DNA of 64,000 nucleotides from Desulfobacteraceae bacterium (GTDB taxonomy: Bacteria; Desulfobacterota; Desulfobacteria; Desulfobacterales; JAABSP01), in the NCBI GenBank assembly GCA_011390345.1, contig JAABSP010000009.1:1-64000 (forward strand), given 5' to 3'. Positions 52,608 through 63,882 of this stretch are shown in pieces. The position numbers and the translations under genes were made by a program. Within the stretch, counting starts at the first letter, position 1. Each line of letters starts with the position of its first letter. The notes under the pieces were generated by a model, which made no database searches, was not told the origin of the DNA, and was given only the letters and a program-made list of their open reading frames with translations.

Positions 52608-53798
52608 TTATCGGTCCGGGGCCGCGGAAAGAGTGATGGTGAAGACCGCGCCCTTGCCTTGGGGCGCGTTTTGGGCCCGGATTTCGCCGCGGCATTGTCG
52701 GATGATCTCCCGACAGACCGAAAGCCCCACCCCCAGCCCCCCGGCCTTTCTTCGGGTATAGAAAGGCTCGAAGATATGGGGCAGATCCTCCTCCGAAATC
52801 CCGGTTCCGGTGTCAGATACCTGCACCTTAATCCACTCCCCGGCCATCCGCGTCCGAATGGAGACCTTTCGATCCTCTCCCTTTCCATGCTCCACCGCGA
52901 AAAGGGCATTGTCGATGAGATTCATGAAGACCTGCCCCAATTCCCCTTGGGAAGCCCAGATCCGGGGCAGATCCGGCGTCAGATCCAGATCGACGGCCAC
53001 TTTACGTTCCCTGGCCATCCCATTTAACAGCGCGGCCGTCTTCCGGATCACGCTGTTGACATCGACCGACTCCTCCTGGCGGGAGGCCGGCAGATTGAGA
53101 TGGTAGAGCCTCTGAACCGTCTCTCGAATCCGGTGGAAAGCCTCTTCGATGAGATTTGCGATCTCCAGCAGATCCTCCTGCCCCTCGCACCCGTCCATCA
53201 GAGGAACCAGCAGCGCGGCGATTCCCTGCAGGGGGCTGTTGATCTCATGCGCGATGGTCGCGGCCAGCCTTCCGGTCGCGGCCTGGGTCTTGGAGCGGAT
53301 CAGATCCTCCTGCATGGCCTTCACCTTGATGATCTCGGTCTGGAGCCGTTTGTTCATCTCCTCCAGCTCCAGGGTCCTCTCCTGAACCATCTCCTGAAGC
53401 TGGTCCCGATGGGCCTTCAGTTCGAGATGGGTCCGGATCCGGGCCCGGACGATCTCCACGGAAAAGGGCTTGTTGAGGTAATCGACCGCGCCGAGGGAGA
53501 ATCCCAGAGCCTCGTCTGATGGGCGGCTTTTGATGGTGATGAAGATGATGGGGATATCAGCGGTCTCTGGATTCTCTTTGAGCCTGCGGCAGACCTCATA
53601 GCCATCCATTTCCGGCATGACCACATCCAGCAGAATGAGATCGATGGCCTCTTCCTCAGAGAATGTGATCTCCAGGGCCTCGGGGCCGCTTTTGGCAAAT
53701 CGGACATCATAGTTTCCCTCCAGGATCTCTCCCAGGGCGCGGATATTGTGGGGGCTGTCATCGACGATCAGGATCTGATATGGTTTCGAGGGTTTCAT
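52608..53798 (-). CDS. receiver-first histidine kinase
   Basis: A 396-residue protein in the order receiver (ILIVDDSPHN; phospho-Asp in LILLDVVMPEMDG; Lys in LNKPFS), coiled coil (LQEMVQERTLELEEMNKRLQ), HisKA (ATIAHEINSPLQGI) and HATPase (QVFMNLIDNALFAV; VSDTGTGI; GGLGVGLSVCREI). A cytosolic relay kinase that probably takes phosphate from the next gene's hybrid kinase. It begins 35 bases after the hybrid kinase's stop and is the last gene of the leftward run with it and the binding protein. Output regulator not seen. Confidence 0.92.
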   Translation of the reverse strand: MKPSKPYQILIVDDSPHNIRALGEILEGNYDVRFAKSGPEALEITFSEEEAIDLILLDVVMPEMDGYEVCRRLKENPETADIPIIFITIKSRPSDEALGFSLGAVDYLNKPFSVEIVRARIRTHLELKAHRDQLQEMVQERTLELEEMNKRLQTEIIKVKAMQEDLIRSKTQAATGRLAATIAHEINSPLQGIAALLVPLMDGCEGQEDLLEIANLIEEAFHRIRETVQRLYHLNLPASRQEESVDVNSVIRKTAALLNGMARERKVAVDLDLTPDLPRIWASQGELGQVFMNLIDNALFAVEHGKGEDRKVSIRTRMAGEWIKVQVSDTGTGISEEDLPHIFEPFYTRRKAGGLGVGLSVCREIIRQCRGEIRAQNAPQGKGAVFTITLSAAPDR

Positions 53799-53833: not shown

Positions 53834-56800
53834 CTACTTCAACCCGGAGAGAATCTGTTGCAGAATTTTTCCTGCACGGGTGAAATCGAGGCTTTCAATG
53901 TTCGATACCAGGGTTTTCACGGTTTCGGTAGATGCGGTCTGGGAGATCCGATCCCGAAGGCGCTCCATCTCCGGAATAGCTCGGATATTGTTCTTCTGCA
54001 ACAGCTTCTCAAGGGCGCAAAGCTCTGAATAGAGAACTTGTTTCATCTTCGGGGATAAGGTTTCCGGAGAAGGGGAGGGCAGATCCATCTTCTCCAAAGG
54101 GGGGCATTCTTCTGCATTATCTCCATTGACTTTTTCCGAATCTGTTCGGAGGCGGTCGATCTCCGCCATCACCCGATCCAGTTCCTCTGTAAACTGATCC
54201 AGATCTCCGTTGTGATCCCGGCCATCCCGGATCGTCTTCTCGAGCTGCTCTGCAGCCTTCACCAGGCGTCGGGCAGCACAATTTCCCGCGGTCCCCTTGA
54301 AGGTATGAATCTGCTGCAGTACATTTTCCCTCCGGCCATTGCTCAGATCCTGGGCGAGCTTTTCCCCGGCCTGGTGATAGTGGGTATGAAACAGAAAGAG
54401 GATCTTCTTGAAGACCTCGAGCTTTCCCCCCATCCGGATCGCGCCCTCCTTGTAGTCGATAACGGTCCCATCCGATGCTGTTCGGGTTCCTGTCCCGAGA
54501 TCGGGATCGGCAGGTTCAGAAAAGGGGAGGGGGCCTTTCTCCTCATGGCTCCCCAAGGGGATCTGCATCTTCTCCTGCGCCGGCGCACTGTTGTTGTAGG
54601 GCGTTTTGATCCATCGGGAGAGGGTCTCCATCAGCAAGCTCGGGTCCAAGGGTTTGGTCAGAAAATCATTCATCCCGGCATCGAGGCAGGCCCTTCGGCT
54701 TTCGCTCAGGGCATGAGCGGTCATGGCAATAATGGGAATCCTTGCAACCTTCCCCGGAAGCCCTCTGATCTTTCGGGTCACCTCGAGACCATCCATCTCC
54801 GGCATCTGCAGATCCATCAGAATCAGGTCGTAACATTGCCGCTGCACCGCATGCCATGCCTCTTTTCCATCCACTGCGATATCCACGGTCATCTTCAGGG
54901 GCTCGAGAAGAGAGAGTGCCACCTCTTGATTGACCTCATGATCTTCGGCAATGAGAATCCGAGCCCCGGCAAAAGAGGGATAATGACCTTTTTGGGGGGG
55001 TGCGGCAATCTTTTTCCGAAGGCCCTTTTCGAGCAGCAGGGAGAAGCAGAAAGTGGTGCCCCGGCCCGGCTCACTCATGGCCTGAATGTTGCCGTCCATC
55101 AGTTCGACAAGCTGTCGGCAGATGGAAAGGCCGAGACCTGTGCCGCCGTAGCACCGGGTCATGGAATCATCTGCTTGTGTGAATGCATCGAAGATGGCCC
55201 CGATCTTCTCCGCTGGAATACCGATGCCGGAATCCGAGATCTCAAAACCGATCCGGATCTCTTCAGAATCTTCTTTCAAGAGATGGGCATCTACCTTGAC
55301 AAATCCGCTTTCCGGGGTGAATTTCAGTGCATTGCCGATGAGATTGATCAGAATCTGTTTGATCCTCTCGGCATCCCCGTTGAGATCTTCGGGAATCTCT
55401 CTATCCCAACCCATGGAAAGCTCGATCTTCTTTTCCCGGGCCTTTTCGGCAAACATGTCTTCGATGTTTGTCATCAGCAGGGACCAGGAGAAGGGGATCT
55501 TCTCCAGGTCGAGTTTTCCGGCCTCGATTTTCGAGATATCCAGCACATCATTGATCACCCTCAACAGCAGTCGGGAGGAGGATTCGATCTTTTCCAGATA
55601 ATCGGCCTGTTTCGGGGTCAATTCGGTCTGCCCCATCAGCATCACCATTCCCGAAATCGCGCCGAGGGGGGTGCGGATCTCATGGCTCATGTTGGCCAGA
55701 AAACGGCTCTTGGCATCGGCTGAAGCCTCGGCCGCCTCCTTTGCGATCTTCAGGCGCTCGGAGCGCTTCTGATCCGTGAAATCCCGGATCAGCCCCTCGA
55801 AAATCCTTTTCCCGTTCCGGCCCTCCTCGATCGTGTGGAGATGAACCAGCAGAAAGAGATCCTGTCCGGACCGGTTCTGGCAGCCGATTTCGATGGCCCT
55901 GGAGAAATCCGCGCCCGGATGGTTCATCAGCTCCGCGTTTTGCTCATGCGTCATGTTGAGAAGGGAGAAGATATTGACCCGGCCCTGGCACATTATTTCC
56001 GCAGATTCATGATCAAAAATCCGGGCCATCGCGGGATTAGCAGTGATGAGATCTCCATCGATATCCGCCTGAAAGATACCATCGGCCGCGTTTTCAAAGA
56101 TAGAGCGATATTTATGCTCTGAGTTCTGCAGCGCCTCCTCCCGGGAGCGGAGGGAGGTGGCCATGTCGTTGAAGGAGAGCGCCAGCGCGCCGATCTCGTC
56201 ATCGGTCTCCGGATGGATCTTTTCTGAATCCAGCCCCAGTCCCAGGGCCCTCACCCCTTTGATCAGCCGGTTCAAAGGCCGGGTGAAGCGGCGGACGAAC
56301 AAGAACATCACGAAACATCCGATGAGCCAGAATAGCAGCCCGAACAGGCCGGCCCGACGGGCAATGTCGATGATATTTTGCTTCAGGGGTTGGCGATCCA
56401 TCACCAGACCGATGACCCCTGCCATCTGTTGGGTGGGGCCCTGCCTCATATCCATGCCGAGAACCATCGCCTCCTCGGTACGAAAGCGCGGCGCGTAGAT
56501 GACACCGCACCAGAATTCATCCGCATCCCTCCGGCCCTGGTGGAGAAAGGGGTAATCTTGTTCCGGATCATGGGGAACGGGAAAACCGGCAAAGTCTGCA
56601 ATGATCTTTCTGATCTCTTCCCGGGAAGGGGCAGCAGGCGAATCTTCAGGATAAAGGGCATTTCGATTCGACCCCATCAGCAGGCGGGCCTCCTGATTAT
56701 AGACAAAGACCTGAACCACATCCTCCTTTTCAAATGCGCTCCAGACCGCATCGGAGAGCAGTTCTGTGCTTTCGGACATCACCCCGAGGGTTACATTTCT

Positions 56801-56971
56801 TGCGATGATTTCAGCAAGCACCCTTCCGTTTTCCATCTGCATCCGGGTGAGGAGTCTGTACTGGTGATGGATGAAGAAGAGGGTGAAAAAAGTACTCACC
56901 AGCAGCGTAAAGAGGGTGAAAGCCAGAAGCATCTTCAGAAAAAAGCTCTGTCTGATGGTTTGAAGCAGCAT
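53834..56971 (-). CDS. BarA-like hybrid sensor kinase (TM, HAMP, PAS, HisKA, HATPase, receiver, Hpt)
   Basis: A 1045-residue multidomain kinase. Helix 1 near residues 12-35, a periplasmic domain of about 170 residues, helix 2 near 210-230 (GLLFWLIGCFVMFLFV), HAMP, PAS (YRSIFENAADGIFQADIDG), HisKA with His in FLANMSHEIRTPLGAI, HATPase (INLIGNALKFTP; SDSGIGI; GGTGLGLSICRQL), a receiver (ILIAEDHEVN; LILMDLQMPEMDGL; LTKPLD) and a C-terminal Hpt (QIHTFKGTAGNCAA). All phosphorelay residues are present. The periplasmic-binding-protein gene ends 13 bases upstream, which suggests the binding protein feeds a ligand signal to this sensor. Confidence 0.94.
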   Translation of the reverse strand: MLLQTIRQSFFLKMLLAFTLFTLLVSTFFTLFFIHHQYRLLTRMQMENGRVLAEIIARNVTLGVMSESTELLSDAVWSAFEKEDVVQVFVYNQEARLLMGSNRNALYPEDSPAAPSREEIRKIIADFAGFPVPHDPEQDYPFLHQGRRDADEFWCGVIYAPRFRTEEAMVLGMDMRQGPTQQMAGVIGLVMDRQPLKQNIIDIARRAGLFGLLFWLIGCFVMFLFVRRFTRPLNRLIKGVRALGLGLDSEKIHPETDDEIGALALSFNDMATSLRSREEALQNSEHKYRSIFENAADGIFQADIDGDLITANPAMARIFDHESAEIMCQGRVNIFSLLNMTHEQNAELMNHPGADFSRAIEIGCQNRSGQDLFLLVHLHTIEEGRNGKRIFEGLIRDFTDQKRSERLKIAKEAAEASADAKSRFLANMSHEIRTPLGAISGMVMLMGQTELTPKQADYLEKIESSSRLLLRVINDVLDISKIEAGKLDLEKIPFSWSLLMTNIEDMFAEKAREKKIELSMGWDREIPEDLNGDAERIKQILINLIGNALKFTPESGFVKVDAHLLKEDSEEIRIGFEISDSGIGIPAEKIGAIFDAFTQADDSMTRCYGGTGLGLSICRQLVELMDGNIQAMSEPGRGTTFCFSLLLEKGLRKKIAAPPQKGHYPSFAGARILIAEDHEVNQEVALSLLEPLKMTVDIAVDGKEAWHAVQRQCYDLILMDLQMPEMDGLEVTRKIRGLPGKVARIPIIAMTAHALSESRRACLDAGMNDFLTKPLDPSLLMETLSRWIKTPYNNSAPAQEKMQIPLGSHEEKGPLPFSEPADPDLGTGTRTASDGTVIDYKEGAIRMGGKLEVFKKILFLFHTHYHQAGEKLAQDLSNGRRENVLQQIHTFKGTAGNCAARRLVKAAEQLEKTIRDGRDHNGDLDQFTEELDRVMAEIDRLRTDSEKVNGDNAEECPPLEKMDLPSPSPETLSPKMKQVLYSELCALEKLLQKNNIRAIPEMERLRDRISQTASTETVKTLVSNIESLDFTRAGKILQQILSGLK

Positions 56972-56984
56972 AATTCCGCCTCGC

Positions 56985-57884
56985 CTATTTCCCCATTTCC
57001 AGAAGGGTCATCTCTGCGGCATCGAGATCGGACTCGATCCTCAGACGCTTCCCCACGGTCTTGTTGATCTGAATCACCGGCTTTCTCGCCTCCGTGTTCA
57101 TCACCCGCCGCCCCGAGGTCCCCTTTAGAATCTTTTGGGCCATCTCCCCGGCCTGCCGGCCTAAATCCTCCGGGTCAAAGGTGACGGAAAGAAATGCCCC
57201 CATATCAAGATACTTTTCTGAAAAAGAGAGTACCGGAAAACGGTTCTCCAGCGAGACCTGCAGCAGGTGCTGGATGGTCTCGGGGGTATAGACGATGATG
57301 TCGGGGATCATCCAGAACCCGTCAATCTCTTTGACGATCTCTTTGAGCCTTTGGGCCATGTCCGCGGATTTATGAACGGCCACAGAGAGGAGTTGAACCC
57401 CCAGTTCATCGGCCGCTGCCTTGGCCTTTTCTGCAAAAATCCGGTTTCGATCCGGATTGTAGAGAAATCCGACCCGCTCTACATCGGGCGCGGCTGTAAT
57501 GAGAATCTCCAACTGCTTTTTCTGCGGAATGTTCATGCTGACGCCGGAGATGTTTTCCTGGTCTTCGACGATATCCCAGGGGTTGAAGACCATGAGATAG
57601 ACGATGGGAATATGGGTGACGGAGAGTACCTTGCCCAGTGCCTCGTTTCCCACAGCCAGTATCAGTCGGGGTTTCTCTTCCTCGATAAGGGATAGGAGAG
57701 CCTCCTCTCCCAGTTCCGAGATCAGAAACCGTTTTGTGGTGCAACTGCAGGCTTGGCCGAATCCGTCGATCGCGGCCTCGTAGGGCGGAATCCTGATGCT
57801 TTCCACCACCGCCACCAGGCTGGAGGCCTGAGCCGGCAGGGAAATATTCAGCAGCAGGAGGAATAAGAGGAGAAGCCGTTTCAT
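56985..57884 (-). CDS. ABC-type substrate-binding protein (PF04392-like)
   Basis: A 299-residue secreted protein with a signal peptide (LLLLFLLLLNISLPAQASS) and a periplasmic-binding fold of the TrpX/PF04392 type: RLILAVGNEALGKVLSVTHI, PIVYLMVFNPWDI, GVSMNIPQKKQLEIL, VGFLYNPDRNR and the C-terminal INKTVGKRLRIE. No permease or ATPase is adjacent. It lies 13 bases before the hybrid sensor kinase and is the first leftward gene, so it is better seen as a sensor partner than a transporter. Opposite, 375 bases away, is the TonB receptor gene. Confidence 0.85.
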   Translation of the reverse strand: MKRLLLLFLLLLNISLPAQASSLVAVVESIRIPPYEAAIDGFGQACSCTTKRFLISELGEEALLSLIEEEKPRLILAVGNEALGKVLSVTHIPIVYLMVFNPWDIVEDQENISGVSMNIPQKKQLEILITAAPDVERVGFLYNPDRNRIFAEKAKAAADELGVQLLSVAVHKSADMAQRLKEIVKEIDGFWMIPDIIVYTPETIQHLLQVSLENRFPVLSFSEKYLDMGAFLSVTFDPEDLGRQAGEMAQKILKGTSGRRVMNTEARKPVIQINKTVGKRLRIESDLDAAEMTLLEMGK

Positions 57885-58259
57885 AGGGAAAGGTTTCTCT
57901 GTCGCCGGCTCCTGCCGTTTCGGCGATAATGGGAATATGGACCAACCTTCATAGCGTCTCAGATGAAAGCCAGGGAAATATATTCGGAAAAAACAGATGC
58001 CGCATTTTTAACCCTCTGCCGCTTTTGTTTCTTATCAGAAATCTGCACAAAAAGTCTACAGGAAAAGTGAAGAAAAGGGAAGGGGAGAGAAGAGGTTTTT
58101 TTTGACTTGCACGAGGAAAAGGGGTGTGATATCTTTGAATTCCTCGTTTGCGGAGGAGACTCGCCTTGTCTGGTGTCGGAACGGGCTTTTCCAAAACGCT
58201 TCCCGATGCGATGCATTTATCCTTAAACCCCGCTTTTATTTTGTAAAGTGAGTTCAAAG
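57885..58259. other. divergent control region between binding protein and TonB receptor
   Basis: About 375 bases without a gene. On the right-hand strand TTGACT at 58102-58107 is followed by TGTGAT (17-base spacing) or TGATAT (19), a possible promoter for the receptor. TCCTC...GAGGA arms at 58140-58157 form a short hairpin behind it. I could not identify a known riboswitch, but the leader of about 120 bases leaves room for one. Confidence 0.4.
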
Positions 58260-60197
58260 ATGTTTCCAAAATTCTTTTCCCGCCGATTGTCCGCCATCGT
58301 TTCCATGCTGCTGCTTCTTTTTCCTTTTTCCGCGGCACAATCCCAGACCGAAGAGGAGATGGCCATTCTCTCCCTCTACTACCGGCCCGAGGAGCTGCAG
58401 GTGATCAGCGCGACGCGGTCTCTCAAGCCCATCTCCCAGGTTGCGGAGAACATCACTGTGATCAATGCAGCCGAGATCCGGGCCATGAACGCGCACACGC
58501 TGGGAGAGGTGCTCCGGCAGGTTCCAGGGATCTTTATCTCCAGCAATCAGGATTTCGGAGCAATTTCCCTGCCGTACATTCAAGGCTCCGAGCTTCGACA
58601 CATACAGGTCTATGTGGATAACATCCCCTGGAACTCGGTTTACTCCGGAGAACCCGCAATCCAGTCGATACCCGTCGGTGCGGTGGAGCGGATCGAGATC
58701 GTCAAAGGGCCTGCATCTTCATCATGGGGTTCTTCTCTGGGCGGCGTCATCAACGTCATCACCAAGTCCGCAGGCCATACGCAAAAGCCGATAGGAATGC
58801 TTCAAGCTTCCTATGGCGAGGCCGCATCTCAAAACTACCAGGGGGAGATCTCTGGTAAGGCAGGGAATACCGGCTACTATCTCTTTGCAGACCATCAGGA
58901 ATCCGACGGGCTGGAGCCCACGCGGGAGTATGAAAACAGCAGTCTCTTTTCAAAGCTGCGCATCCCTCTGTGGGAACGCACAGCGATGGGCATTACCTTC
59001 GGCTACAGTGAGCCCTGGAATGATTTGGGGGAATATACGGAAGGGGATATGGTTTCTGATATTCAGGACAGGACAGTCTGGGGCGCCATTGACTTCAATA
59101 CCAGCCTTTCAGAGAGGATGGCGTTCTTTCTTTCCCTCTATGGATTCCGGCAGAAATACAATACAAATACCAGCACTCTGGGAGCTGGCATTTATTCGGA
59201 TAGACCGGAACTCCTGTTGAACACCGGGGGTGATCAGCGAATTTTTGGATTTGCCGGAAATCTGACATGGGAGAACGAAATCCATCGGCTGGTGCTGGGC
59301 GCGGATGGGAACCGTGCCGATATGGAAAGGGTAAACGCATACGGTCCCCTGTACCAGGGATATGGAGCACCGCCGAAGATGGAATCCGATTCAAAACGGA
59401 ATCTGTGGGCTCTCTATCTCAACGATACGGTAACGCTGGGAAATTTTGCCATTACTCCCGGAATCCGCTACGATCACCACGAATTCATAGGCGGATTCAT
59501 CAGCCCCAGTCTTGATCTGACCTGTCATTGGAAAGAGATCCTCTTCAGAGCGGCTGCATCAAGGGGCTTCTCCGCACCCGGCATCGGTTTGGTCAAAATG
59601 GGTGGCTTTCTTCTGGCCCCGAATCCAGATCTGGATTACGAAAAGATCTGGTCATATCAGCTCGGCGCGGAGACAAGTGCCATTCCCTATCTGTGGGCCA
59701 GAATCAATCTCTTTCAGCATGAAATCGAAGATATTCTTTCCAGAGAACTCTATGCTGAAGGTCCTCCAGGAAACACGATCATGCTGAATAAGAACGAAGA
59801 TCGACGACGGGGATTTGAGATCGAGATGGAGACCCTGCCAATCCATGACTTTTCTTTCTTCGGCGGATTCTCCTATGTCATTACGGATAATCAGGCGCAG
59901 GAGGAAAATGATGAAAAGAAGTACAAATGGGTTGCAGGGCTTCGATATAATAACCCGAAGATCATAAGCCTCCGTCTGGCAGGGATCTATACCTGGTGGG
60001 ATGAGCCCTCCTCGTCAAATGCGAGCTATGATGACCCCATATGGGATCTCAATCTGCGCCGAAACGTCAGCATCGGAGAAATCAATGCCGACCTCTTCGC
60101 AACCATCCATAACATGTTCGACGGATCTTCCTATGATTTTGACTATTACGATAATCCGAAACGGTGGATGGAGGCGGGGATACGCTTCCACTTCTAA
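58260..60197 (+). CDS. TonB-dependent outer-membrane receptor
   Basis: A 645-residue receptor with signal peptide (RLSAIVSMLLLLFPFSAAQS), a plug domain (INAAEIRAMNAHTLGEVLRQ, VERIEIVKGPASSSWGSS, GGVINVITK) and a beta-barrel ending in RWMEAGIRFHF, with the terminal Phe. A possible TonB box is the stretch EELQVISATR. Smaller than siderophore receptors with an extra signalling domain; closer to BtuB/catecholate-like size. I start it at ATG 58260; a GTG at 58248 would add four residues. The ligand is unknown. It lies 24 bases before the peptide gene. Confidence 0.9.
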   Translation: MFPKFFSRRLSAIVSMLLLLFPFSAAQSQTEEEMAILSLYYRPEELQVISATRSLKPISQVAENITVINAAEIRAMNAHTLGEVLRQVPGIFISSNQDFGAISLPYIQGSELRHIQVYVDNIPWNSVYSGEPAIQSIPVGAVERIEIVKGPASSSWGSSLGGVINVITKSAGHTQKPIGMLQASYGEAASQNYQGEISGKAGNTGYYLFADHQESDGLEPTREYENSSLFSKLRIPLWERTAMGITFGYSEPWNDLGEYTEGDMVSDIQDRTVWGAIDFNTSLSERMAFFLSLYGFRQKYNTNTSTLGAGIYSDRPELLLNTGGDQRIFGFAGNLTWENEIHRLVLGADGNRADMERVNAYGPLYQGYGAPPKMESDSKRNLWALYLNDTVTLGNFAITPGIRYDHHEFIGGFISPSLDLTCHWKEILFRAAASRGFSAPGIGLVKMGGFLLAPNPDLDYEKIWSYQLGAETSAIPYLWARINLFQHEIEDILSRELYAEGPPGNTIMLNKNEDRRRGFEIEMETLPIHDFSFFGGFSYVITDNQAQEENDEKKYKWVAGLRYNNPKIISLRLAGIYTWWDEPSSSNASYDDPIWDLNLRRNVSIGEINADLFATIHNMFDGSSYDFDYYDNPKRWMEAGIRFHF

Positions 60198-60221
60198 ACC
60201 CAGTAAAGTAAGGAAAGCCCT

Positions 60222-60365
60222 ATGGAAAAAGATGAAAAGCAGAGCGATTCTTCAGTGGAGATCCTCGACAGGGGGATCGAAGGGAACAATGTAGAGGGGT
60301 GCTGTTTAATTGATCCAGTACCTTTTACCAAAGCGCCGGAGCCGGAGCCAAAGCCAAAACCTTGA
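60222..60365 (+). CDS. candidate modified-peptide precursor (47 residues)
   Basis: A tiny gene with a good ribosome site (AAGGA, seven bases before ATG) between the TonB receptor and a radical SAM/SPASM maturase. The product starts MEKDEKQSDSSVEILDRGIE, has a Cys-Cys pair at 27-28 (VEGCCLIDPVPFTK), and ends in PEPEPKPKP. The first 25 residues are charged like a leader; the Cys pair and the Pro-rich end would be the core. Size, place and Cys content fit a ribosomally made, post-translationally modified peptide precursor of the radical SAM type (geopeptide-like; family by recollection). The identity of the core and product is unknown. Confidence 0.65.
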   Translation: MEKDEKQSDSSVEILDRGIEGNNVEGCCLIDPVPFTKAPEPEPKPKP

Positions 60366-60372
60366 CTTTAAA

Positions 60373-60399
60373 GGGAGGGGCGGATCATCCGTCCCTCCC
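60373..60399 (+). promoter_or_regulatory. strong hairpin between peptide and maturase genes
   Basis: GGGAGGGGCGGA (60373-60384) pairs with TCCGTCCCTCCC (60388-60399), 12 bp with one G-T pair and a TCA loop. No T-run follows, so it is not a clear terminator. It lies eight bases after the peptide stop and 14 bases before the maturase ATG, which has no other ribosome site. It could stabilise the peptide mRNA or limit maturase translation. Confidence 0.65.
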
Positions 60400-60413
60400 C
60401 CGGCCATTTCTCT

Positions 60414-61700
60414 ATGCCGATATCCACTTACACGAAGATCTACCCCTGCGATGAGAAGCTTGATCACCGTATCCTTTATTCCACCCTAAAGGCGTCCGTG
60501 GTACGGGTTCCGGCGGCCATGATCCCGGATATCGAGGCCGGCCGCCTCACACCGGACCAGGAAAAACTCTTCTCCGATCTGAAGCTCATCACGCAGGATA
60601 AAAAGGCCGAACAACAGGAGATGCTCGACGGCTTCAAAAAGCGGAACGCGAGATCGAAGAAGTTCGATATCACCGCGGTGCTGACCCTGGACTGCAACTT
60701 CGCCTGCACCTACTGTTTTGAAAACCGTATTAAGTCCCATCAGCACATGTCCCAACAGACTGCAGAGGAACTGATCCGGTTCGTAAAGGCCCAGTGGGAT
60801 CAATTTGCAGTACCCAAAGAGCACCTGACTGTCAACTTTTACGGCGGAGAGCCCCTGCTGAAAACAGATCTGATCCGCTACATCTCCGAAAGGCTCAAAT
60901 CCTTTGCCGAAGGGAAAGGTGCCCAGTACGATGCGATATTGACCACCAATGGCTCTCTTCTGACCCGAAATACGGTCGAATTCCTGCTCCCTTTTGGTCT
61001 GACCCTTGCTGCGATCACCCTTGATGGCCCAAAAACGATCCACGACCGCAGCCGGCCCTTTGCAAATGGGACTGGCAGCTTTGAACGGGTGATTGGAAAT
61101 GCGGCCGCAGTCTGCGATCTCATCCGAATAGGAATCAGCGGAAATTTTCTGCAGAAAAACTACATGGATTTCCTACCCCTGCTCGACGAGCTGGAAAAGG
61201 CTGGCCTCACCCCAGACCGGATCGATTCTCTCCGATTCATGCCGGTCAGCTTTGAACCCGTAAGCAATACCGGCTGCAGTTCCTTCAATGAGTCTTGGCT
61301 GATTCATCCTATATTGACGCTTCGGGAGGTGGTTCTCTCCCGGGGCTATTACACCCCCAAACCCGGCCCCCTCCACTGCATGATCGAGACCGACGACCTC
61401 TTCGTGGTCCACTGGGACGGGGCCGTCTACAAATGCCCCGCGCTCATCGGTATCGAGGAATTTGCCGTAGGTCATGTGAATACCGGTCTCGACCCTCAGA
61501 AGGCTGCCCGTTCCCATGGATTGGAGATCTGGAAGAACAAGGAGTGCCTGGCCTGCCCCTATCTCCCCCAGTGCTTCGGCGGCTGCCGCCAGATGGCCTA
61601 CTTCCGCGATGGCCGAATCGGGCGGGACTGCATGAAGCCCTTTCTGGATGCGGCGCTCGAGTCCCTGGTCAAGCAGGACCTGCGGTATCGGCCCGCATGA
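60414..61700 (+). CDS. radical SAM/SPASM peptide maturase
   Basis: A 428-residue radical SAM enzyme with a SPASM-type C-terminal Cys domain. CNFACTYCFE (CxxxCxxC) binds the 4Fe-4S/SAM cluster; NFYGGEPLL and LTTNGSLLT are typical. Auxiliary-cluster cysteines: LHC, YKCPALIG, KECLACPYLPQCFGGC and GRDCMKP. The N-terminal 65 residues (TYTKIYPCDEKLDHRILYST) look like the RRE-less start found in peptide maturases of the geopeptide group (recollection). It should carry out a C-based crosslink or thioether on the neighbouring Cys-Cys peptide. No ribosome site in front of ATG. Confidence 0.85.
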   Translation: MPISTYTKIYPCDEKLDHRILYSTLKASVVRVPAAMIPDIEAGRLTPDQEKLFSDLKLITQDKKAEQQEMLDGFKKRNARSKKFDITAVLTLDCNFACTYCFENRIKSHQHMSQQTAEELIRFVKAQWDQFAVPKEHLTVNFYGGEPLLKTDLIRYISERLKSFAEGKGAQYDAILTTNGSLLTRNTVEFLLPFGLTLAAITLDGPKTIHDRSRPFANGTGSFERVIGNAAAVCDLIRIGISGNFLQKNYMDFLPLLDELEKAGLTPDRIDSLRFMPVSFEPVSNTGCSSFNESWLIHPILTLREVVLSRGYYTPKPGPLHCMIETDDLFVVHWDGAVYKCPALIGIEEFAVGHVNTGLDPQKAARSHGLEIWKNKECLACPYLPQCFGGCRQMAYFRDGRIGRDCMKPFLDAALESLVKQDLRYRPA

Positions 61701-61775
61701 AAAACATCATCCCCTTGATTTTTTTCCCATCCGGTGTCATGATCAGTTCATAAACCGCTAACCGGAACGGAGCCT

Positions 61776-61853
61776 ATGACCGAACATAAAAACAAAAAGC
61801 CCTACGACAGTTTCTTCAAAGATGTCTTTTCAAGGATTTTCACGGAACCGTAA
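61776..61853 (+). pseudogene. fragment resembling the start of an Rpn/PD-(D/E)XK transposase-type nuclease
   Basis: 25 codons, MTEHKNKKPYDSFFKDVFSR and five more, with GGAG before the ATG, then a stop. The phrase PYDSFFKDVFSR resembles the conserved N-terminus of Rpn-type recombination-promoting nucleases, but nothing of the catalytic part follows. It is probably a truncated remnant; a real small protein cannot be ruled out. Confidence 0.35.
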
Positions 61854-61862
61854 AGAGCTGTT

Positions 61863-63017
61863 ATGGGAAATCGAAGAATCGTACACCGGACCCCTCTGAT
61901 CTCCGGCTGGCATCTGATACTGTTCGGCGCATGCATCGCAGCCCTGGGTTTTCGCTATCTCCTGTCGGATCATCCGAACAAGATCGAATACGGCTACTCC
62001 CGGATGATCTACCCTTGGCTGGCCGATCTCCTTTCCTGGCCGGCCCGGCTCGTTCCGGCCCCCTATTCAGCTACGGAGCTGCTCCTCTATCCGGGCCTTT
62101 TTGCCGGGATTCTGGGAACCCTTATCCATCTGCGCCGTGCCCGAAAGCAGCGAAAGCCGATTTCACGAACATTTGTTCGCCTCTTTTTCCACTGGACAGC
62201 CGTGGCCGCGGGCCTCTTTGCCCTCTACCTCGGGGGGTGGGCTTACAACTATCTCCGGCTCCCCTACTCGGCAGTTCTGAATCCGGAGGTTCAGCAGATG
62301 CCAACCCATGCCGATTACAGCGCATTGGGCCGGGAGATGATCCTTCTGCTCAATCACATCCGGCCAAAGATCGCTGCGGACCTGGATGCGCGGGATCTGG
62401 ACTCTATAGAGATCCGCGTTGATCATGCGGTGCGGAAAAGTGTTTCGATCACGGGCCTTTCCCATATTCCCAATCCGCCCGAGACAAAGGAACTTCTGGC
62501 GGACCCGCTGTTGAGCATGCTGGGGATCACCGGGTTCTTTTCCCCTTTTCTCATGGAGCCTCATGTCAACGGAAGGCTGATGCACTGGGAGCAGCCCTGG
62601 GTCCGTGCCCATGAAAAGGCGCATTTCATGGGATTTGCCTCGGAGACGGATGCCAATCTTATAGCATATGTCTCCTGTCTCGGGTCTCCCGACGATCTGC
62701 TTCAGTATTCGGGAGCCCTCAATGCCCTGCTGGATCTGCGGGGATATATACCGGAAGAAAAGTGGAAAGCGATGATCAATGAGGGATTGAGTGAGGCAGT
62801 AAAGGGGGATATCCGTCGGCGAAGCGAAAATATCCGGCAATATCGACGGCAATATGCCCGATGGATTGCACTGCGCCGAAAGGTGAACGACACCTACCTG
62901 AAGCTCAATGATCAGCCCCTGGGAATGGCCTCGTACCGTGCGGCCGTGCCCCACCTGACGATCTGGTGGGAGAAGGGGCTCAGGAGATCTTCTGTATTTT
63001 CCTGCTCCTTCCGTTGA
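61863..63017 (+). CDS. membrane protein with zinc-metalloprotease-like HExxH (DUF3810-like)
   Basis: A 384-residue protein with three N-terminal membrane helices (LILFGACIAALGFRYLL, TELLLYPGLFAGILGTLI and HWTAVAAGLFALYLGGWA) followed by a large domain. The segment RAHEKAHFMGFASETDANLI contains HEKAH (HExxH) and a downstream Glu, as in DUF3810, a family that I recall as uncharacterised with this motif. It may be a membrane zinc protease. It lies near the peptide and maturase genes (a 25-codon remnant between), so it could process the peptide, but this is inference. It ends 38 bases inside the convergent PHP gene. Confidence 0.75.
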   Translation: MGNRRIVHRTPLISGWHLILFGACIAALGFRYLLSDHPNKIEYGYSRMIYPWLADLLSWPARLVPAPYSATELLLYPGLFAGILGTLIHLRRARKQRKPISRTFVRLFFHWTAVAAGLFALYLGGWAYNYLRLPYSAVLNPEVQQMPTHADYSALGREMILLLNHIRPKIAADLDARDLDSIEIRVDHAVRKSVSITGLSHIPNPPETKELLADPLLSMLGITGFFSPFLMEPHVNGRLMHWEQPWVRAHEKAHFMGFASETDANLIAYVSCLGSPDDLLQYSGALNALLDLRGYIPEEKWKAMINEGLSEAVKGDIRRRSENIRQYRRQYARWIALRRKVNDTYLKLNDQPLGMASYRAAVPHLTIWWEKGLRRSSVFSCSFR

Positions 63018-63882
63018 ATCGCTCCTTGACTCTGTCTTTTAAATCCTTTGACTTGGAATTGAGCAGCGAACAACTGTACCGGATATTCTTTTCAAAAAGA
63101 TCGGGACAGTTTTTGATGTTGCAACGCAGCTTGACGCTGTTGGAGGTCATCTTCCGGATCAGATGCACCTCTTTGCCCACCACCCAAGTCTTCCGGTCCC
63201 GAATAGCGTCGAGAAATGAGCGCCGGTCCAAACCGCACCGGGAGTAGGTGACGCATTTGCCCATATGATACAATGTGTGGCCGTCGCTGCCCCCGGTAAT
63301 GCCTTTGCCAAGATTGAACCCGAGCAGCGCACACTTGTAGTTCCACTTGTTCAGGTTCTCGGCATTGATCACCTCGACCCCGTCCACCTTTTCAAAGAGC
63401 CGGTCCAGGCGATCTTTGGGAAACTGGATATTGCAGATGCCGGTATAGACCGCGGAATAGGGGTGGGGAAAGACGATGACGGTCTCATAATTTCTTGCCC
63501 GATGGATGATCTCCTCCATCTCCAGCGCAATGGAGGACATGATCTCATGACCCATATAAGGGATGATATCCTTCCGGTAGAACCGGATCAGGCTTTTGAT
63601 ATCATAGAAATAGACGAGCAGGTGGGTTCCCTCCCGGGAGGTGATCTCGATGCCGGGAACCGTCAGAATATCTTTATACCGGTCGATCTCCACCGCGCCG
63701 CCGATCTCGTTATGGTCGGTGATCGCGATACCGATCCCCAGCTCCCGGGCACGCTTTACGATGCTCTCCACCCGGTTCAATCCATCGGAATACCGGGTGT
63801 GGAAATGAAGATCCACCACCGTATGATCCGCAAGCAGCGCCTGCAGTTGGGGCTTTTCAAAAGCGATGCGATGATTTTCCAT
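62980..63882 (-). CDS. PHP-domain metal-dependent phosphoesterase
   Basis: A 300-residue PHP protein. Metal-binding motifs: VDLHFHTRYSDG, IAITDHNEIGG, VPGIEITSREG, VIVFPHPYS and TGGSDGHTLYHMGK. This set is typical of PHP phosphoesterases such as those near histidinol phosphatase or the nucleotide 5'-3' exonuclease type; the substrate is not readable. It ends in a Lys/Arg-rich tail, the last 12 codons overlapping the end of the convergent DUF3810-like gene. Single gene; the 118 bases beyond 63882 show no further gene. Confidence 0.88.
   Translation of the reverse strand: MENHRIAFEKPQLQALLADHTVVDLHFHTRYSDGLNRVESIVKRARELGIGIAITDHNEIGGAVEIDRYKDILTVPGIEITSREGTHLLVYFYDIKSLIRFYRKDIIPYMGHEIMSSIALEMEEIIHRARNYETVIVFPHPYSAVYTGICNIQFPKDRLDRLFEKVDGVEVINAENLNKWNYKCALLGFNLGKGITGGSDGHTLYHMGKCVTYSRCGLDRRSFLDAIRDRKTWVVGKEVHLIRKMTSNSVKLRCNIKNCPDLFEKNIRYSCSLLNSKSKDLKDRVKERFNGRSRKIQKIS

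Follow-up and report, generated by a model that had tools for sequence, protein, structure and literature searches.

Geopeptide-like precursor and radical SAM/SPASM maturase beside a TonB receptor and a putative sensory relay in a Desulfobacteraceae genome

What is made from a gene of 47 codons lodged between a TonB-dependent receptor gene and a radical SAM enzyme gene, and what is its product for? The question is raised by a locus of a Desulfobacteraceae bacterium (assembly GCA_011390345.1), analysed here within a stretch of 64,000 nucleotides termed the window (contig JAABSP010000009.1, positions 1 to 64,000). The reading favoured here, with a probability of about 0.6, is that a modified peptide of the geopeptide group is both produced and sensed by this locus, and would act as ligand of a receptor-to-kinase relay of its own.

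The precursor gene and its maturase

The small gene (60222..60365, + strand) encodes 47 residues, MEKDEKQSDSSVEILDRGIEGNNVEGCCLIDPVPFTKAPEPEPKPKP. A Shine-Dalgarno sequence, AAGGA (60210..60214, +), lies 7 nt 5' of its ATG. The gene starts 25 nt past the end of the receptor gene and stops 48 nt 5' of the maturase gene, the three being arranged head to tail on the + strand. The gene, its ribosome site, its CC pair and its location, with a TonB receptor on one side and a radical SAM enzyme on the other, had all been described in a sequence-only reading of this DNA and are confirmed from the sequence. The peptide comprises a leader motif (VEILDRG), a core (CCLIDPVPF) and a Pro-rich, lineage-specific tail. 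The same reading had placed the core in the CC pair and the tail together. The pair (C27 and C28, codons at 60300..60305, +) is indeed invariant in the aligned sets A3 and A4, whereas the tail (KAPEPEPKPKP) has a counterpart in no other peptide and is not supported as core; the conserved core is CC-x5-P followed by a hydrophobic residue.

Two independent leave-out profiles, made from the geopeptides of other organisms with the window peptide excluded, rank this gene first among the 696 small open reading frames (ORFs) of the window, with scores that are weak in absolute terms (E 0.0004 and 0.01). The curated geopeptide model TIGR04229 (22 positions, curated cut-off of 30 bits) gives no match to the peptide even at E 10, nor does a Pfam scan. 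Most peptides of its relatives also fall below the TIGR04229 cut-off, the best reaching 29.6 bits in one set scanned. The geopeptide-like group is defined here as small genes beside a TIGR04280 maturase that carry a leader of the form [IVLM]x[VIFLM][LIFV]..G and a CC pair. The window gene has all three traits and is, judged by its sequence, geopeptide-like and outside the curated TIGR04229 model.

The maturase (60414..61700, +; 428 residues) scores 489.3 bits against TIGR04280, for which the curated cut-off is 400, with residues 1-426 aligned on model positions 1-428. Its radical SAM motif CX3CX2C (C94, C98, C101; 60693..60716, +) and its seven-Cys SPASM region (C322-C406; 61377..61631, +) are invariant in 19 homologues. 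The SPASM pattern is complete (C322-X13-G336-X4-C341, C378-X2-C381-X5-C387-X3-C391, C406), in agreement with the SPASM-type cysteines noticed earlier. The enzyme is the sole close match in its own genome, a paralogue count that rests on searches. It occurs in none of 16 other sampled genomes of the same order, and the TIGR04280 cut-off is exceeded in 31 of the 395 genomes sampled from the phylum; its distribution is thus patchy.

The AlphaFold model of the maturase (pLDDT 89.7) has its best structural match in CteB (5why, Z 26.4, residues 4-424). TigE matches it over nearly its full length (Z 24.9), and for the radical SAM/SPASM part the matches of anSME and the ChlB enzyme are about equally good. 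Three strands followed by three helices are predicted for residues 7-80, and the CteB alignment, a full-length comparison, starts at residue 4; residues 1-80 of the model resemble an RRE/PqqD-type domain. The ranthipeptide maturases, CteB (5wgg and 5why) of the SCIFF system and PapB, share with the window system the SPASM clusters and a short Cys-containing precursor. The fold match with CteB takes in the N-terminal region, identity is about 20%, and the window core has one CC pair in place of many spaced Cys. CteB-like enzymes form Cys thioethers. So does PapB (PMC9413430). By analogy with these relatives, thioether formation would be the most likely chemistry of the window maturase. Among the homologues, three maturases (L130:3628-5793, L132:5019-7100 and L133:8020-10200) are extended at the C-terminus by a fused domain, some 270-300 residues long, with a common RYxDDFIDxxLWP motif; a Pfam match is lacking for that of L133.

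The gap between precursor and maturase genes holds a GC-rich 12-bp hairpin (60373..60399, +; -30.4 kcal/mol, z -4.4). The 90 nt located 3' of the precursor fold better than shuffled sequences in two-thirds of 69 systems (median z -2.8). The hairpin likely attenuates or stabilises the transcript, keeping the precursor in excess of the enzyme. An Rfam scan of 57800-61900 found no known RNA element, and promoter and terminator scans stayed at chance level. Directly 3' of the maturase, a DUF3810 membrane protein (61863-63017, +) bears a metallopeptidase-like motif, HEKAH...E. It was considered as a leader protease and set aside, being present in only one of the compared loci.

Relatives of the peptide and their two core types

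The sequence-only reading had proposed a geopeptide-like pair of peptide and maturase, to be checked by searching for a conserved CC and leader near homologous maturases and contradicted if these lacked a similar small gene. With a fixed leader-plus-CC pattern and a ribosome site required, 41 of 112 small ORFs near such maturases fit, compared with 7 of the 2315 in the rest of these loci. Five of these seven are themselves geopeptides, lying either on the other strand from the maturase or next to a cut-off cluster. A precursor-like ORF is also found in nearly all 40 loci of a second set (the Geobacter-like family of genome G153). Since leader-plus-CC ORFs almost always accompany the maturases, the pairing of precursor and maturase is not due to chance, and the proposed pair stands, with a maturase above the TIGR04280 cut-off and similar small genes beside nearly all of its homologues.

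The leader shared upstream of homologous maturases is of the VLDxG type, in the form [ED]IxVLDxG, and the CC pair follows about 8-20 residues later. Beyond this pair, two types of core are distinguished. Geobacter-type peptides end in CC-[T/S/K], small residues and R or K. In a second, sister group, CC is followed by five residues, Pro and usually a hydrophobic residue, as in CCWGPMAPFR, CCYSSIGPIRV and CCISMFFPWR. The window peptide fits best here (CCLIDPVPFT, or CC-LIDPV-P-F), and the window maturase is nearest to the maturases of this group. CC and Pro are invariant in 14 aligned CC-x5-P peptides, a set chosen for that pattern. The window system is therefore like the named geopeptide system (TIGR04229/TIGR04280) in its maturase above the cut-off and in its leader-plus-CC precursor directly upstream, and unlike it in its CC-x5-P-hydrophobic core and long Pro-rich tail, which differ from the CC-[T/S]...R of the Geobacter type. 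Both the maturase and the peptide family already carried NCBIfam names; what the window contributes is a divergent member that the curated peptide model does not cover, with a peptide, a receptor and a maturase that are all divergent and have no close relatives.

Some variants of the precursor deserve mention. CTC replaces CC in the geopeptide variants of at least two systems (L206 and L225). Two similar geopeptides lie in tandem 5' of one maturase in L148:7645-7967. In a Nitrospirota locus (L038), a geopeptide-like ORF located some 292 nt 5' of the maturase has a long Lys/Thr/Ala-rich, histone-like N-terminal part, followed by AEVAGAACCMGKPYVLK.

The receptor, the binding protein and the kinases

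The TonB-dependent outer-membrane receptor (58248..60197, +; 649 residues, PF07715 Plug) adjoins the precursor and maturase genes. The sequence-only reading had treated it as a border gene alone; it is the most specific partner found. When the window receptor was searched against the same 395 genomes of the phylum at E<=1e-60, 31 genomes matched: 29 of the 31 above the TIGR04280 cut-off, against 2 of the 364 others. A more distant receptor adjoins the maturase in the two cut-off genomes that lack a homologue at this threshold. As for receptor-positive genomes below the cut-off, G096 does possess a maturase, and G154 has the receptor, a periplasmic solute-binding protein (SBP) and a kinase with no maturase. 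The receptor family is almost confined to maturase genomes in the sampled phylum, and its members adjoin the maturase genes in the compared loci. In genomes with two systems, such as that of L120, different receptors lie beside different peptides.

Divergent from the receptor gene, the window encodes an SBP of the PF04392 family (56985..57884, -). In 62 of 69 systems, the receptor gene has an SBP gene of this family no more than 2.5 kb away. The SBP gene of the window is followed by a hybrid sensor histidine kinase (53834..56971, -) with HAMP, PAS, HisKA, HATPase, REC and Hpt domains, which from its adjacency is the likely reader of the SBP, and by a REC-HisKA-HATPase protein (52608..53798, -), the probable next step of the relay. 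These three genes run opposite to receptor, precursor and maturase. Gene clustering over 50 neighbourhoods recovers the maturase in 43, the receptor in 40, the PF04392 SBP in 35 and a kinase in 34, with contig ends and overlapping ORF calls among the causes of the misses. No ABC permease is recognised beside the SBP or among the recurrent neighbours, and the compared neighbourhoods conserve neither an exporter nor a leader protease. In L136 (by Pfam) and in L137 and L148 (by similarity), the maturase has an MFS protein as its neighbour.

The association of receptor and SBP extends beyond the maturase. SBP relatives at E<=1e-25 are found in 54 genomes, so that a specificity equal to that of the receptor is not supported for the SBP; in three genomes without a maturase (G160, G350 and G124) these relatives sit at the end of a contig and weigh neither way. 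The genome of the window itself holds two maturase-free clusters of a TonB receptor and a PF04392-like SBP (L165 on G000:C168 and L164 on G000:C9), partnered by a kinase/NtrC regulator or by a chemoreceptor. These clusters indicate that the sensory design is wider than geopeptides. Receptor, SBP and kinase or chemoreceptor possibly form a general outer-membrane-to-kinase sensing design able to see other ligands, and the geopeptide may have been recruited into such a nutrient-sensing design.

Co-variation with the partners and the role of the product

The co-variation of the peptide with its partners was analysed in 69 complete systems, the core being taken as the eight residues after CC. Core distances correlate with receptor distances given the maturase (partial correlation 0.34) and hardly with maturase distances given the receptor (0.06). 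For the leader, the values are 0.43 with the maturase given the receptor and 0.21 with the receptor given the maturase. Regression gives the same picture, with coefficients of 0.29 (receptor), 0.33 (SBP) and -0.03 (maturase) for the core and of 0.24, 0.08 and 0.43, respectively, for the leader. The leader thus varies with the maturase, and the core with the receptor and the SBP. Permutation p values are small, but the tests take no account of shared ancestry; the evidence is the contrast between leader and core, which survives dereplication; removal of any single system barely shifts the core-receptor value. In the systems left when Geobacter-type maturases are set aside, the core follows maturase and receptor equally strongly (0.24 and 0.22). 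A single natural mismatch, L122, combines a maturase from the Geobacter-type clade (set with 99% SH-aLRT) with a CC-x5-P core, and its receptor groups with those of CC-x5-P systems, in agreement with a core that tracks the receptor and not the maturase.

Under the reading favoured here, the acidic leader (VEILDRG) of the 47-residue precursor would bind the maturase, probably at the RRE-like N-terminal domain, a contact suggested by their co-variation. The maturase would then modify the short core starting at CC (CCLIDPVPF...), whose cysteines would most likely form thioether bonds. Leader and tail would be removed, and the product exported by proteins encoded outside the locus. The TonB receptor, tied to the system by its genetic linkage and its co-variation with the core, would bind the product and import it, alone or carrying a metal or other cargo, across the outer membrane. 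In the periplasm, the PF04392 SBP, a regular neighbour that also co-varies with the core, would take it up, and the adjacent histidine kinase would report on it. These data suggest that the bacterium may make the finished peptide as a signal to itself or as a scavenger. The recurrence of kinases, and the fact that no ABC permease is recognised among the recurrent neighbours, speak for a self-signal or status sensor rather than for uptake alone. Four observations count against the favoured reading: the lack of a conserved exporter or leader protease, the maturase-free sensory clusters of this genome, the three receptors close to the geopeptide type that have no maturase nearby, and the equal co-variation of core with maturase and receptor outside the Geobacter-type maturases. 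A more general proposal, put forward tentatively, is that this is a widespread form of autocrine signalling in Gram-negative bacteria, in which a radical-SAM-modified peptide would act through its own TonB receptor, a PF04392 SBP and a kinase, with cores and receptors matched within each lineage.

The alternative that survives best, although we consider it unlikely, is a metallophore. The CC peptide would be secreted to bind a metal or nutrient, the receptor and SBP would recover the loaded form, and the kinase would set expression according to metal status; siderophore and methanobactin systems achieve this in other ways. Two cysteines side by side can bind soft metals; however, CC alone is conserved in all cores, and the residues that track the receptor are mostly not metal ligands. 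Methanobactin operons (MbnA/B/C and MbnT) also unite a precursor with its maturation enzyme and a TonB transporter, and some include a sensing system; the receptor, precursor, maturase and regulator genes resemble this layout, and the TonB transporters of methanobactin operons re-import the loaded peptide (PMC3621798). The window system differs from them by its radical SAM enzyme in place of MbnB/MbnC, its histidine kinase in place of a FecIR-type sigma factor, its PF04392-type SBP and the lack of a conserved MATE exporter. No MbnB/MbnC (MNIO) domain was found by Pfam in the six genes of 56985-63882, and no metal gene is recognised among the recurrent neighbours, which, like the missing permease, speaks against a metallophore. 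A metallophore whose loaded form is sensed is possible.

That the core tracks receptor and SBP rather than the maturase, and that the receptor family hardly occurs outside maturase genomes, would be unexpected if receptor, SBP and kinase sensed an unrelated compound and the peptide were a regulated output, for instance an antimicrobial or a cofactor. This explanation, which appears improbable, draws on the maturase-free receptor-SBP clusters with a kinase or chemoreceptor in the same genome and on the regulator outputs, which differ among loci (NtrC regulators, HD-GYP). Finally, a spurious small frame, with the maturase acting on another substrate, is very improbable: the curated model does give no match and the leave-out scores are weak, but the frame comes first of 696 with both profiles, is preceded by a ribosome site, lies where a precursor gene is expected and contains a CC-x5-P core, and has similar genes beside nearly all homologous maturases.

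In LuxP/LuxQ-type sensing, a periplasmic binding protein works with a histidine kinase. The favoured reading, a peptide sensed by its own relay, is comparable in having an SBP with no recognised transporter beside a sensor kinase, known here from adjacency, and differs in that the ligand would be a modified peptide needing TonB-dependent entry first. Searches of PMC papers, which leave most subscription journals outside, returned no literature on geopeptides or TIGR04280 and no paper joining radical SAM, RiPP, TonB-dependent receptor and histidine kinase. Likewise, PMC papers, among which few subscription journals are covered, yielded no description of the receptor-SBP-kinase association or the leader/core partition. 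Geopeptides are thus a named family for which the PMC literature yielded no assignment of product or function. The contrast of core with receptor and SBP against leader with maturase provides them with a testable function, that of ligand of their own sensory relay, together with a natural set of swaps. Geobacter-type anaerobes matter for metal cycling; were the product a signal, they would possess a previously unrecognised peptide language, and its perception would pass through an outer-membrane transporter.

Among the receptors, one TonB receptor of a geopeptide locus (L145:5914-7827) is broken by a single in-frame TAG, possibly through decay or a sequencing error. Three other receptors (L196-L198) are close to the geopeptide type with no maturase or precursor nearby, nor anywhere in the genome in the case of G154, and with SBP or kinase relatives present; their bearers are possible eavesdroppers.
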